The notes beneath the pieces are model-generated. The model did not search any database. It had not been told where the DNA came from and was given only the letters and a program-made list of their open reading frames with translations. From positions 1-64,000 of the forward strand of contig SKUB01000111.1 in the NCBI GenBank assembly GCA_007122315.1: a stretch of 64,000 nt of DNA. The letters run 5' to 3'. Origin of the DNA: Pseudomonadales bacterium (GTDB lineage: Bacteria > Pseudomonadota > Gammaproteobacteria > Pseudomonadales > Azotimanducaceae). The position numbers and the translations under genes were made by a program. Below, one piece after another: positions 46,371-55,720 of this stretch (the stretch's first letter is position 1; the number at the start of each line of letters is the position of its first letter).

Positions 46371-47438
46371 TCAGGCGCCGGGCAGTTCACAGAACAGGTC
46401 CATGTCGATTTTGACGCTGACCGCGCGATTGCGATGGGGCCCGGCGCACCAGGACGGCATCACCATGGAGTACAGGCCGCTGCCTCCCGCCATCAGCACC
46501 AGGATGTCCTCCGGTCCCTGGAAGCAATGGCGGATCTTGCTGTCGTCGTCACCACGGGCGAATGCCGGAGCTACCCGCTTCAGGGTACCCACGGAATGGG
46601 CGCACAGGGCATGCAGCCGCGTCTGGATGGCGGCGCGATCGAGTCCCGCAGCCACCAGGGTCTGGGCATGATCGGGATTGAGCACGACCACGGCAGCGCC
46701 GCCAGTGAGAATGGCGTTGTTGCCGCCGAGATGGGCGAGGGCCGCCGCAAGCGCGTGCAGGAGTCCGTCGGCATCCGCGTCCGCGTCACCAGTGGCGCTG
46801 AAGATGACCGAGTGGGGCGCTTCGGCACCGATTACGGTGACGACGCTGTCTTCGGCCTCGAAGCCGAGGCTGACGTGCAGCGGCGGCAGCGGTGAATGCT
46901 CCTCGTCCTCGGCGAGGCAGTAGGTGAACTTGCCGGGATGACCGAGCAGGGCCATGTCGGAGCTCCCTGGCCGGCCGCCACCGATGTTGATCATGGCCAG
47001 TCGCAGCGCGCGGCCGATGCTGGCGTTGGCACGAAATCCGGGCCCGAGGGCACCGAATCCGGACGCGATGGGGCCGCAGTCGTGGCGGGCCGGGCCATTG
47101 ACCAGGATCAACGGCGCCGTGCAGTGGGTGGTCGCCTGCATCTCGGTCAGATCGAAGCGCGGATCGATGACCGCTTTCACCGCGGCCACCACCACCGGCA
47201 TGTAGTCAGGCAGGCAGCCCGCCATGACGGCCGCGATGGCGACATGGCGCGCGCTGGCCGCACCGCCGCCCGGCCCCATTTCGCCGAGCAGCAGATCGGC
47301 CTCGAGGCCACTGGCAAGCAGCATGCGTTCCACCCGTTCCGGCGTCGGCACCACCACGGGCAGCCCGTCCGTGCAGCCCGTGGCATGCAGATGCTCGAGG
47401 GCCGCTTCTTCACTTTCCGCGTTCAGCAACGTCGTCAC
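46371..47438 (-). CDS. Conserved 355-aa protein coupled to the UGSC selenoprotein, function unknown
   Basis: The protein starts at a GTG overlapping the selenoprotein stop (GTGA). No signal peptide or membrane helix is seen. It contains TDGLPVVVPTPERVERML, the cysteine-bearing segments MQATTHCTAPLILVNGPA and RHDCGPIASGFGALG, then NIGGGRPGSSDMALLGHPGK. The C-terminal half has LMAGGSGLYSMVM and SWCAGPHRNRAV. Conserved-looking cysteines and a glycine-rich core suggest a redox or substrate-binding partner of the UxxC protein, which is inference from coupling only. I do not recognise a characterised family. Confidence 0.75.
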   Translation of the reverse strand: MTTLLNAESEEAALEHLHATGCTDGLPVVVPTPERVERMLLASGLEADLLLGEMGPGGGAASARHVAIAAVMAGCLPDYMPVVVAAVKAVIDPRFDLTEMQATTHCTAPLILVNGPARHDCGPIASGFGALGPGFRANASIGRALRLAMINIGGGRPGSSDMALLGHPGKFTYCLAEDEEHSPLPPLHVSLGFEAEDSVVTVIGAEAPHSVIFSATGDADADADGLLHALAAALAHLGGNNAILTGGAAVVVLNPDHAQTLVAAGLDRAAIQTRLHALCAHSVGTLKRVAPAFARGDDDSKIRHCFQGPEDILVLMAGGSGLYSMVMPSWCAGPHRNRAVSVKIDMDLFCELPGA

Positions 47439-47968
47439 GAGCGCCCCTCCAGCGCATCGATGATGGCGTCGGCGACGGCTTCCGCCACCTGCTTCAGGTT
47501 CGCGGCTCCCGTGCCGGCGACGGGGTGAGGCAGGCGCACCCGCGGCACGTCGGGCATACCGAGGGACTGGGCGACGAAGTCGCCCTGGGGCCAGAAATCA
47601 TCGGTCACGAGCGCCACTGCGGGAACGCCGAGCCGGGCTGCTGCGATGCCGTCACGCACGGTGCCGGTGGTGCAGCTGCCTCAGTGGCCGTAGGCGGCGA
47701 CCAGAGCCTGACAGCCGTCGGAAATCTCGTCGAGCATGTCCGCCGGCGCGGGAATCGACGCGTTGCCCTTGTTCCAGAAAGCAGGCGTCATGCCGGGAAG
47801 GCGGGTCTGCATGGCGTTTGCAACCTGCTCGAGAAAGGCTTCGGAGTCCGGAAAGCCGTTGGCGAGGAATCCGACGCGGCACCGGTTGCTGCCGCGCAAC
47901 TCGGTGTGCAGGCCGTAGGGCGTCAGGGGCGTGGCCGAGGGTGCCCGTGGGTCGTGGTAGCTGATCAT
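47435..47968 (-). CDS. UGSC-family selenoprotein (in-frame UGA read as selenocysteine)
   Basis: The frame from ATG 47968 runs to TGA 47437-47435 with one internal TGA at 47683-47681, codon 96. Reading it as selenocysteine gives AAYGH-U-GSCTTGTVRDG, exactly the U-G-S-C motif that names this family, and a 177-aa product without frameshift. Upstream the protein has CRVGFLANGFPDSEAFLEQV and FWNKGNASIPAP; downstream it continues with VPAVALVTDDFWPQGDFVAQ, so both halves look under selection. UxxC is a redox-type motif. It is coupled to the 355-aa protein and lies 26 bp after the 2OG oxygenase. An ordinary gene caller would report two broken fragments. SelA, SelB and tRNA-Sec must lie elsewhere in the genome. 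Confidence 0.88.
47636..47683 (-). promoter_or_regulatory. Candidate bacterial SECIS element
   Basis: Immediately after the UGA the RNA can fold as GGC/GCC, an A-A mismatch, GCUGC/GCAGC, a 4x4 internal loop, CCG/CGG, a G-A mismatch and CAC/GUG, closed by a 5-nt loop CGUGC (47660-47656). The apical loop starts 21 nt after the UGA and has G at its second position followed by U, in line with described bacterial SECIS rules. Folding was done by eye. Confidence 0.6.
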
Positions 47969-47994: not shown

Positions 47995-48714
47995 CTACAT
48001 GCCTGCCGGCCGGTGGATCATGCGCAGCAGGCGACTCGTCAGGTTCTGTGCGTTGATGACGACGATGAAGACCTTGCGCAGACGACCTTCCGGGCATGCC
48101 AGAGGCTTGACCCCGTGCCAGGAATCGCCGCGCCGATAGAACAGCAAGGAACGGTTACCGAGGGCATCCGCCTGCCACACCCGCTCGAAGTCGTCGAAAT
48201 CCGGCGCGCTTTTGCGACTGAAGCGCCCGCCGTCATCCAGAATCAGGGTCTCGCCGCCCCAGTCCGGATCCCAGTCTTCGGCTGTATTGAAGTAGAAGAT
48301 GTGTGAGCCGAGCTTGCGTTTGCTGTCGCAGTGCGGCGACACGGAGCAGCCGCGCGGCGTGTAGTGCCAGTGGTAGGACAGTTGAAAATCGTCATTGCCG
48401 AACAGGCGTGCCAACCAGGCCTGATAGATCGGTCCTTCGAGTTCTGCCACGAACTGGTGCCAGACGTCGGCCACAGGCAGGTCGGACCGATATTCGAGCG
48501 CGTAACGATCGTGGGGTGACTGGCCATGGGCACGCCGGCGGCCGAAGCTCTGTTTCATCACCTCCAGGGGGGGCATCTGGGTCCGCAGGCGCTCGAACGC
48601 CTCGTTGGTGAGCAGGCCCTCGGGATTCAGCCAGGGATAAGGTTCCGCTGTCTGGAACGCCGTGGCCGGAATGGCCTCGAGACGTTCAAAGTCGAGCAGG
48701 CGGGCAGTGGTCAA
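47995..48714 (-). CDS. 2-oxoglutarate/Fe(II)-dependent oxygenase
   Basis: The 239-aa double-stranded beta-helix protein has the iron ligands HxD in SVSPHCDSKRKLGSHIFYF and the distal His in GDSWHGVKPL, with the 2OG-binding Arg in LRKVFIVVIN. The middle segment WDPDWGGETLILDD is typical of prolyl-hydroxylase-like and small-molecule 2OG oxygenases. It starts at a TTG in a 4-bp overlap (TTGA) with the upstream glycosyltransferase gene, preceded by GGAGG, so the two are translationally coupled. Substrate unknown. Confidence 0.85.
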   Translation of the reverse strand: MTTARLLDFERLEAIPATAFQTAEPYPWLNPEGLLTNEAFERLRTQMPPLEVMKQSFGRRRAHGQSPHDRYALEYRSDLPVADVWHQFVAELEGPIYQAWLARLFGNDDFQLSYHWHYTPRGCSVSPHCDSKRKLGSHIFYFNTAEDWDPDWGGETLILDDGGRFSRKSAPDFDDFERVWQADALGNRSLLFYRRGDSWHGVKPLACPEGRLRKVFIVVINAQNLTSRLLRMIHRPAGM

Positions 48715-51023
48715 GCGGGACCTCCCTGGGACGCAAGGTCTACGGCCGGTTCAAAGGCTGGAAGATCGGGTGTGGACATGAAGTGCTCCTTGTAGCCGGC
48801 GTTCGTGTTCGGGTGCGTGTCGAGCGAGAGGCCGGCGACGATGCGTTCCACCACCGGCAGCAGTTCGGCGAACGCACGCTCCGATTGCACCATGGGCTGA
48901 CCGAAAGCCGTCGCGAGCCCCTGATCGATCAGCGCCTGATGCATCGCTTCCAGGTTGCGCGGCGGCAGCACCCAGCTGCGTTCCACGAGGCGCGCGCAAA
49001 GATAACGCAGTCCCTGCTGTGGTCGAATGCTGCCACGTTCATTGTAGGACTTAGCCGATGCTGTCTTCGTGACCCAGCGTACCAGCTTCTGCCAGGGGTG
49101 AGCCGAGCGCGGCTCCAGGGGCCAGATCTGCAGTGGCACCTGTGCGCACACGGCATCGGCGAGCATGGATTCGCTCTCGCCGGTGACGACGATGGCGTGA
49201 GCATGGGCGAGTGCCAGGCCGTAGGGGTTGCTGGGGTCATCCGGATGCCACGTGTGCAGCAGGTCATCGGCGCCGAGACCCGCGTGCAGCCCAGCCATGG
49301 CAGGTGCAGTGCGGCGACTGGTCACCACCAGCAGTCGAGCGTCCTGGCCGCGAGCCCAGGCTGAGACATCGCGTGCCAGCCGTGCCGGCTCTCGCAGCAT
49401 ATGCGCATGGGTATCTCCGCCCACCAGCAGCGCCACGCGCCGGGGGGCATCGAGCCAGGCCTGCCAAGGGCTGTGATCGGACGCCGGGGCCGTCAAGCCT
49501 GCGTTCATGGGCAACAGAGCACGGATCCGCCGCGGGTGCGGCGGCAGATCGAAATGATGACACTGGATGAGTAAGCCGCCATGTTCTGGCGCCGCGCCGG
49601 CCTTGCGGCCGAGCAGTACCAGGCGCAGGTCGCGCCCGGGACCACGGGCAGCCAGCCGCGCCACGCGGGTTGGCAACCAGCCCGCTGCGACGACGACGCG
49701 GGTGTGGGCAGGCAACGCCGGCAACCCACAGCGACCGAGCAGGCGCCGACCCAGGAACGCTGTGGCAGTCCAGGGAATGGGTATCTCCAGAAGCGGCCGT
49801 TCGGTGCGTTGCGACAGCGCGCGCGCCACGGCGAGCGCGTTGTTGTTGTGGCCGGGTTTGCGGTGCGTCAGCACCACCAGGGGGCCCGGCCCTGAAGGAC
49901 CGCCTGCAAGCCACTGCACCTCACGGCCGCAGCGGCGATAAAAGTCCCAGCGGGTAGCCGGATGCCGGGCAGCCGCCAGCTCCAGGTGCTGCTGCCAGAA
50001 CCAAGAACTGCGCCGGGCTCGATCCGCGCGGGCGATCCGTGGTTCCCGCACCCTTAGATGCAGGTTCGTCGCGGCCCTGAAAAGACGCTCCAGCACCCAG
50101 CCCAGATCGTTGTCCGGAACCTGCTCGAGCACATCGTCGACCACCAGGGTCGGCTGCAGCGCCGGGGAAGGCTCGGCCTGAAGGATCCTGCGCAACCGCG
50201 ACCCTTGCGGATGCCGATCGAGGCGTTGCAAACAGGAGGGCCACAGTGCCGATGGCTGCGACGCCGTGAACGGCAGGTAGCCGGCCGCATTGCATTCGTC
50301 TTCGAGATCCGGCCAGAGGGAACCGGTGGGATTGTCGTGATACACGTACTGATCCGGGAATGGGCGCCAGGGCTGGGTGTGCAACGTGGTGAAGTGCACG
50401 AGCCTGGAACGGCCGGGATCGTATTCGCTGTCGCGGGCGTTCCAGCCCGCGTCCAGGTGGCCCCAGAGTCCCGCATTGCGCGCGGTCGCCTCCAGCCGTT
50501 TGCGGCGCTCCCGGCGAACCGCCTCGGAACTCCAGCATGGCGCCATGCGCGCACAGTCCAACAGCATCACCGAGGTGTCGTGGTCGTTGATCGAAAGGAA
50601 CCCCGCAGTGCCCATCTCGAGATCGAACAACCTGGCCGGATCGGTCAGATAGATCTGATCCGTGTCGTTGTAGATGGCCCGTCCCTGGAATTCACAGAGT
50701 TCAGGAACTACGAAACGGTAATTGGTGAACCCGGTCAGCCAGTAGCCGCGCTGGAAACCCGCCAGTTCCCGCAGCAAATGGATCTCATAGCGCCGCCCGG
50801 GATCGCGGTGCTTGAGTACCGACCACAGAAACACGCGTTCGGCCCGGAACTGTCCGCGTTCGGTGCCGAGGAAGATGCGCACTGTCGGCAGCGCAGCGGG
50901 GCTCACCCCGGTCTCGGGCGGCAGCACGATACACTCAGGCCTGTGCTGCCAGGCCGGAGGCCGATGGGGATCCATCGCCGGCGGCAGCAAGGTACGGGCC
51001 AGGCGCTCGAGGAGAAAGGCCAC
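48711..51023 (-). CDS. GT8-like glycosyltransferase fused to an ELM1/GtrOC1-type domain
   Basis: The 770-aa protein has an N-terminal glycosyltransferase-like domain (residues about 45-240) with a DxD motif in AIYNDTDQIYLTDPARLF at residues 120-122. A middle segment reads VLEQVPDNDLGWVLERLF, like the helix after motif II of some methyltransferases, but no SAM loop is visible. Residues about 380-740 match the mitochondrial-fission ELM1/GtrOC1 family: VVLTHRKPGHNNNALAVARA, RRVALLVGGDTHAHML, ARLLVVTSRRTAPAM and IVVTGESESMLADAV, the last being GT-B-like. It likely glycosylates a surface or lipid substrate; a bifunctional role is inferred. Confidence 0.75.
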   Translation of the reverse strand: MAFLLERLARTLLPPAMDPHRPPAWQHRPECIVLPPETGVSPAALPTVRIFLGTERGQFRAERVFLWSVLKHRDPGRRYEIHLLRELAGFQRGYWLTGFTNYRFVVPELCEFQGRAIYNDTDQIYLTDPARLFDLEMGTAGFLSINDHDTSVMLLDCARMAPCWSSEAVRRERRKRLEATARNAGLWGHLDAGWNARDSEYDPGRSRLVHFTTLHTQPWRPFPDQYVYHDNPTGSLWPDLEDECNAAGYLPFTASQPSALWPSCLQRLDRHPQGSRLRRILQAEPSPALQPTLVVDDVLEQVPDNDLGWVLERLFRAATNLHLRVREPRIARADRARRSSWFWQQHLELAAARHPATRWDFYRRCGREVQWLAGGPSGPGPLVVLTHRKPGHNNNALAVARALSQRTERPLLEIPIPWTATAFLGRRLLGRCGLPALPAHTRVVVAAGWLPTRVARLAARGPGRDLRLVLLGRKAGAAPEHGGLLIQCHHFDLPPHPRRIRALLPMNAGLTAPASDHSPWQAWLDAPRRVALLVGGDTHAHMLREPARLARDVSAWARGQDARLLVVTSRRTAPAMAGLHAGLGADDLLHTWHPDDPSNPYGLALAHAHAIVVTGESESMLADAVCAQVPLQIWPLEPRSAHPWQKLVRWVTKTASAKSYNERGSIRPQQGLRYLCARLVERSWVLPPRNLEAMHQALIDQGLATAFGQPMVQSERAFAELLPVVERIVAGLSLDTHPNTNAGYKEHFMSTPDLPAFEPAVDLASQGGPA

Positions 51024-55151: not shown

Positions 55152-55720
<569 letters not shown>

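Follow-up and report, generated by a model that had tools for sequence, protein, structure and literature searches.

A gene of the UGSC selenoprotein family with a constant partner gene and a probable distant kinship to the selenocysteine domain of GrdB and PrdB

We found that a 64,000-nucleotide stretch of bacterial DNA (hereafter the window) carries a new member of the already described UGSC selenoprotein family, whose frame contains one in-frame TGA. Judged by sequence, the gene almost certainly encodes a true selenoprotein, and insertion of selenocysteine (Sec) at codon 96 is strongly supported. The sequence, the partner gene and the neighbouring genes suggest a small relative of the glycine and proline reductases that draws its electrons from thioredoxin. 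The account that we favour on balance combines these points: a Sec-decoded UGSC domain, kin to GrdB and PrdB, would work with the partner and be fed by thioredoxin. New here are the GrdB/PrdB link, the constancy of the partner and the linkage to thioredoxin-type genes, which together turn a long-unexplained redox protein into a testable two-component reductase.

The UGSC gene is split into two in the table-11 list of open reading frames, and the sequence-only reading had proposed instead one continuous frame with a single TGA at codon 96 (47683-47681), a product with U-G-S-C followed by TTGTVRDG, UGSC family membership, and a downstream gene coupled to the true stop. We could confirm each of these points: with the TGA taken as Sec the frame gives 177 residues, reading AYGH-U-GSCTTGTVRDG around codon 96, and the GTG of the downstream gene, at 47438, overlaps the stop by 4 nt (GTGA). 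The interval 47435-47968 was correct as the position of the gene, but the strand had been left unstated; the gene lies on the minus strand, and the plus-strand frame is not the gene. The motif is present as claimed, although to call it defining is slightly too strict, as fused members carry U-S-[ST]-C or U-S-L-C. The reading as a whole is supported. What it overlooked, besides the strand, is a paralogue, the constancy of the partner gene and the GrdB/PrdB link.

Table 1 Positions of the UGSC gene, its partner gene and associated features in the window.
Feature	Position	Strand	Details
UGSC-family selenoprotein gene	47435..47968	minus	177 residues, predicted Sec at residue 96
ATG start of the UGSC gene	47968	minus	
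True stop (TGA) of the UGSC gene	47437-47435	minus	
UGA codon 96, predicted Sec	47681..47683	minus	aligned TGA in 20/26 and Cys in 6/26 distinct loci
TGC, Cys99, resolving Cys of U-x-x-C	47672..47674	minus	Cys in 21/21 aligned rows
SECIS-like hairpin	47649..47667	minus	6 pairs, apical loop CGUGC, GU at nt 25-26 from the U of UGA
Partner gene	46371..47438	minus	355 residues; GTG start shares 4 nt with the end of the UGSC gene (GTGA)

The Pfam UGSC model (PF24696; gathering score, 25 bits) matches the window protein with 146.7 bits (E 9.7e-43) and aligns residues 24-174 with profile positions 21-171 of 172. The NCBIfam UGSC equivalog model NF041046 gives 100.6 bits, under its 125-bit cut-off, which was passed by two of the ten scanned proteins, nine of them UGSC domains (L018, 153.2; L028, 139.9). 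The protein is therefore placed in the Pfam UGSC family, outside the NF041046 equivalog. Both columns of the U-x-x-C motif hold Cys or Sec in all 21 aligned UGSC domains. Searches with UGSC led to 16 places among 369 genomes from the class, to six loci in the named genome collection and, among 398 genomes from the phylum, to five more genes; L071, the sixth new row there, belongs to the L068 gene as a fragment and was not counted separately. After removal of L029, a duplicate of L021, 26 distinct UGSC loci remained, which are not independent of each other, 9 of the 20 loci with TGA being copies within one genome, G332.

Among the 21 UGSC domains, eight matched the NCBIfam GrdB model TIGR01917 (best 4.3e-6, L028), and other Grd/Prd models were matched by seven (GrdF), five (TIGR01918), four (PrdB) and three (GrdH) of them, each remaining NCBIfam family except UGSC being matched by one domain only. 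These GrdB-type scores, 10-26 bits, are far under the cut-offs of 65-800. The window's own protein gave no GrdB-type match and hit only the UGSC model in NCBIfam, and none of the 21 domains matched Pfam GRDB (PF07355) even at E 10. When the UGSC profile of 21 rows was compared with five PrdB-like domains, one of them from the window's own genome, the profile-profile score was 37.7-37.9, and U96 and C99 were aligned with the UxxC of PrdB. None of 600 column shuffles (three kinds, 200 each, including sets in which the UxxC columns were kept) reached this score, the best being 22.6; the reversed control gave 14.8, and the unrelated partner profile 21.2. The aligned region comprises residues of about 74-151, around U-x-x-C. 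Sec95 of L028 falls near position 349 of the TIGR01917 profile, if the alignment is ungapped, and Sec is placed at 350 in Clostridium sticklandii GrdB in the accessible part of PMC3091704. From these profile comparisons we consider it probable that UGSC is distantly homologous to the Sec domain of GrdB/PrdB, and by this kinship its selenol would be a nucleophile of the GrdB/PrdB type. The accessible parts of the literature examined, including PMC1088965, PMC3091704, PMC10838667 and PMC13188914, contained no mention of such a link, which is likely to be new.

By sequence, the PDB gave no convincing match for the UGSC, partner or PrdB-like profiles, and a coat protein (0.0019, partner) and a designed protein (0.0067, PrdB-like) were taken as chance hits. 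Because no GrdB/PrdB structure was found in the PDB in this way, UGSC may offer a small handle on that fold. A PrdB-like gene of the window's own genome (L061, G000:C299:5547-5918) has an in-frame TGA and the motif U-P-L-C, and scores 39.1 bits against GRDB and 8e-25 against the NCBIfam PrdB model; it is likely to be another selenoprotein of this genome.

The partner gene adjoins or is fused with UGSC in all 26 distinct loci, as two genes in 15 and as a single protein in 11 (L030, L031, L032, L034-L041). Searched separately, UGSC and the partner matched the same 6 of 369 genomes. A 4-nt stop/start overlap is found in six of the seven compared loci of the window's arrangement (the window, L019-L023), and the junction of L024 differs from it. 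That UGSC and the partner form one functional unit is strongly supported. A UGSC/Unknown_1 fusion was already reported in the accessible part of PMC2398784, and, since the fusion is shared, our partner presumably corresponds to Unknown_1. Genome G332 harbors at least 11 UGSC-partner fusion genes, all with TGA (L030, L034-L041, L050, L056), and several of them begin with a hydrophobic N-terminus that looks, by eye, like a signal peptide.

The partner itself matched no Pfam or NCBIfam family. Alignment of 21 partner sequences revealed invariant polar residues, including D24, T32, N138, R143, N151 and E177, and no conserved Cys column. We considered the partner as a pyruvoyl subunit like GrdE/PrdA, but the 21 sequences matched none of the Grd/Prd models of NCBIfam or Pfam, and this candidate was set aside, though a distant kinship may exist. 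Its predicted structure (pLDDT 79.5, pTM 0.82) has fumarate hydratase 7xky_A as the best Foldseek match (E 7.2e-4, TM 0.28/0.33), and the best VIA Z is 5.5 over 87 residues; because the best structural matches have poor TM-scores and low Z, we claim no fold for the partner. Its role may be that of a substrate-binding subunit.

At L018, L033, L067 and L069, four of the 15 two-gene loci, the N-terminus of the partner is a thioredoxin-like domain with C-x-T-C. As a profile, this domain matches PDB thioredoxins (best 9.2e-6) and thioredoxin domains of the window's own genome (probability 95.8), its single-sequence Pfam scores being under the cut-off. Directly upstream of UGSC at two loci in different genomes there is a Pyr_redox_2 flavoprotein with C-A-x-C-D-G; the thioredoxin-reductase-like gene lies 15 nt upstream in L086 (G332) and 12 nt upstream in L070/L091 (G491). 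Similar reductase genes a few kb off in L089 and L092 could be housekeeping genes. Thioredoxin-type genes thus accompany part of the family, and none is linked to UGSC in the window. In glycine reduction, as given in the accessible part of PMC3091704, electrons pass from NADPH through thioredoxin reductase, thioredoxin and GrdA to GrdB; this precedent and the part of the family just described suggest that UGSC may likewise be reduced by NADPH and thioredoxin.

Clustering of the 26 neighbourhoods, in which L021 and L079 overlap, showed acyl-CoA dehydrogenases at four loci and enoyl-CoA hydratases at four, and a CoA-transferase, a thiolase, a P450 and a flavin monooxygenase at single loci. The proteobacterial UGSC carriers found here also hold oxygenase and acyl-CoA genes, and the acyl-CoA-type neighbours hint at a catabolic setting, weakly so in the window. 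Only the partner recurs in all ten loci compared; thiamine genes recur just in the close relatives L019 and L020. We also looked to the operon neighbours in the window (2OG-Fe oxygenase, Elm1-like and thiamine genes) for clues to function, and rejected them as not recurrent across the ten loci. Upstream of UGSC on the minus strand (47995-51023), the 2OG-Fe(II) oxygenase gene overlaps a gene for a 770-aa protein with an Elm1-like domain by 4 nt, and neither of the two stands beside UGSC in the ten loci, save for a 48-aa match in L019. On the plus strand, a 176-aa open reading frame at 55185-55715 with a flavin/NAD-binding start (NAD_binding_8) is possibly the truncated front of a longer flavin monooxygenase.

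The mechanism that we propose is as follows. The UGA at codon 96 would be decoded as Sec by the genome's own SelA/SelB/SelC/SelD, a short downstream hairpin helping, and the product would be a 177-residue flavodoxin-like domain with its selenol at a helix start, facing Cys99. The translationally coupled 355-residue partner would act as the substrate-binding half. The selenolate may then attack a carbon or heteroatom, electrophilic or oxidised, in the substrate that the partner holds, Cys99 would resolve the intermediate as a selenenylsulfide, and electrons presumably flow from NADPH through the thioredoxin-reductase-like flavoprotein to thioredoxin, which would restore the selenol. As for the functional core of this scheme, in which thioredoxin feeds a reductase and the partner is its substrate subunit, we see the chances as even.

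The strongest alternative, which we regard as unlikely, is that UGSC serves general redox defence, as a Sec-dependent peroxidase or disulfide reductase, and is not specific to a substrate, the partner being a mere scaffold or stabiliser. Such a role would suit both the UxxC chemistry and the thioredoxin-type neighbours, and PMC3091704, in its accessible part, cites a work titled on a peroxidase activity of GrdB stabilised by GrdE. However, the pairing with a large conserved partner is strictly one-to-one across the 26 loci, the partner keeps its polar D24, N138, R143, N151 and E177 invariant, and the divergent copies in G332, at least 11, fit substrate diversity better than general defence. 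If the partner-assisted reductase is taken further, UGSC and the partner might represent a third branch, one that has drawn little notice, of the glycine/D-proline reductase selenoenzymes, compact, two-part and often fused, with its own thioredoxin/thioredoxin-reductase-like charging, and copy-diversified for different organic substrates, possibly acting on C-N, C-halogen or C-S bonds; we offer this broader view tentatively and would not count on it.

The thioredoxin fold is characterized by a strand-helix order that closes in a strand hairpin. The AlphaFold model of UGSC, built with seven sequences (mean pLDDT 92.3, pTM 0.88), consists of five repeats of a strand and a helix, of parallel type (E30-36 H42-56 E60-66 H76-85 E88-94 H97-112 E117-122 H123-135 E143-146 H155-174), with Sec96 placed after strand three and ahead of the helix that follows it, and has no C-terminal strand hairpin. 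The structural neighbours listed for the model are flavodoxin-, CheY-, PurE-, LarB- and B12-domain-like, though absence from this listing excludes no family. The best VIA Z, 11.2 (3.2 A over 125 residues), was obtained with a designed protein; one chain from the activation complex of methyl-CoM reductase gave Z 10.4 (3.3 A over 132). By query length the TM-scores of the 50 matches listed are 0.33 to 0.53; as they are modest, "flavodoxin-like" describes the topology and not kinship. In the profile comparison, UGSC scored 15.3 over seven columns against four thioredoxin-family domains of the window's own genome, while the thioredoxin-like domain of the partner scored 52.1 in the same test. UGSC is predicted by the model to be a flavodoxin-like parallel sheet rather than a thioredoxin fold. 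A thioredoxin fold, which the UxxC motif would fit, was suggested for UGSC in the accessible part of PMC2398784, and UGSC is listed beside Trx-like selenoproteins in that of PMC13188914; with the model and the profile score against it, we judge this fold to be quite improbable, and the published suggestion is put in question.

In the 26 distinct UGSC loci the codon aligned with codon 96 is always TGA (20 loci) or Cys (six loci: L022, L023, L024, L032, L068, L069); of the latter, L023 belongs to Sphingobium subterraneum, which can be cultivated. The TGA is kept in L019 (90% protein identity) and L020 (82%), which come from two separate assemblies. Compared with L019, dN/dS (NG86) is 0.078/0.477 before the TGA and 0.023/0.225 after it, and compared with L020, 0.163/1.224 and 0.110/0.735. 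Nonsynonymous change is low relative to synonymous change before as well as after the TGA, so that the two parts both evolve as protein, in keeping with the sequence-only reading, which had called them coherent. The window's own genome has a second UGSC gene with TGA on contig C232 (L018/L076), preceded by a partner whose N-terminal thioredoxin-like domain reads CPTC.

All four genes of the Sec machinery were found in the window's own genome, whose assembly is 93% complete in 396 contigs: selA (545 bits) and selB (365 bits) adjoin on C275, and selD (211 bits) and tRNA-Sec (62.5 bits) are on C15. ARAGORN calls the latter SeC with the anticodon tca, a UCA tRNA-Sec. The selD gene (L026, C15:37050-37964) lies within a 766-aa open frame, which may join it to a second domain; PMC2398784, in its accessible part, describes fusions of the Ndh-SelD kind. 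The window itself contains no tRNA by ARAGORN, and nothing in it matches Rfam at the gathering threshold.

Six of the seven genomes with TGA-type UGSC (the window's own, G091, G135, G314, G332, G491 and G660) have selB over the cut-off. The exception is G135, where UGSC lies on a 3.1-kb contig (C55, L031/L051), no selB exceeds the cut-off and the best tRNA-Sec match is a tRNA-Ser by ARAGORN, so that the genome is without tRNA-Sec; this locus may lie on a stray contig or may be a genuine counter-example, and the tally of tRNA-Sec over the cut-off in five of five genomes is partly false, as it includes that tRNA-Ser. Of the three genomes with Cys-type UGSC, G495 and G627 are without selB over the cut-off, and in G337 there is a tRNA-Sec along with a selB that is partial (229.9 bits). 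UGSC genes also lie close to the Sec machinery: in G332 a fused UGSC gene is flanked by selB and selA, and a different UGSC gene adjoins tRNA-Sec; in G660, UGSC, the partner, selB and selA are neighbours; and in G314, selA, selB and tRNA-Sec are on the same contig as both UGSC genes.

A short hairpin follows the UGA, and in the window it sits within a longer predicted stem (47680-47636). We defined a rule of at least six pairs, an apical loop of 3-6 nt with GU, and a distance of 20-28 nt between the U of UGA and the G. Among 22 TGA loci, comprising the 20 from the UGSC searches and L050 and L056 from the partner search, 19 have such a hairpin, with the G always at nt 22-25, and L040, L050 and L056 have none; one of six Cys loci has it, and so do 152 of the 4252 other codon positions in the same genes. 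As the rule was set after the folds had been viewed and the loci are related, the binomial tail of these counts is not to be taken at face value. The mean fold-energy z was -1.33 for 17 TGA genes and -0.13 for four Cys genes, and the window hairpin stretch is ordinary in this respect (z -0.69, and -0.77 against synonymous shuffles), so that fold energy is weak as proof of a SECIS in the window gene.

A pseudogene or a sequencing error, in which a Cys or Trp codon turned into a stop, is not without example in this family, as the Cys-type gene of G627 (L068/L093) looks decayed, its match running over two frames with a TGA at a Trp position. For the window gene, however, the TGA shared by separate assemblies and by 20 of the 26 loci, the purifying selection past the TGA and the Sec machinery in the genome make this very improbable. 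That the UGA is decoded otherwise, by Trp readthrough or a reassigned code, has the open frame in its favor and nothing further that we found, and is scarcely credible given Cys at all six non-TGA loci and TGA as the stop of the window's other scanned genes and of the UGSC gene itself.

UGSC proteins are among the most numerous selenoproteins of the Global Ocean Sampling (255 sequences, PMC2398784), make up 8.2% of selenoprotein genes in PMC9402790, and are mentioned, by their motif, for genomes whose tRNA-Sec has the anticodon CUA (PMC5330540), according to the accessible parts of these sources. They are named with selenoproteins also in those of PMC9312934, PMC5029168, PMC7539508 and PMC7435645, and the accessible literature names no function for them. 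The window gene resembles this family (PF24696, NF041046, PMC2398784) in its profile match, its U-x-x-C, the exchange of Sec and Cys, and the association or fusion with a second domain, and differs in scoring under the NF041046 cut-off and in being arranged as two separate, coupled genes. It differs from the family as published also in that we find a GrdB/PrdB link here instead of a Trx fold. The models PF07355, TIGR01917, TIGR01918 and TIGR04483 represent GrdB/GrdF/GrdH and PrdB, the Sec subunits of the glycine, sarcosine, betaine and D-proline reductases. UGSC is like them in that the U-x-x-C region aligns, a second subunit is present and thioredoxin-type genes accompany some loci. Unlike them, UGSC has no PF07355 match and stays far under the NCBIfam cut-offs, its partner is unrelated to GrdE/PrdA as far as profiles show, and it is found here in proteobacterial genomes, with oxygenases among the neighbouring genes. 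FarB/FarE of Cloacibacillus porcorum, a GrdB/GrdE-like fluoroacetate reductase for which C-F cleavage is proposed in the accessible part of PMC10838667, provides a precedent, likened to UGSC here by its description, for relatives of GrdB that act on other substrates.
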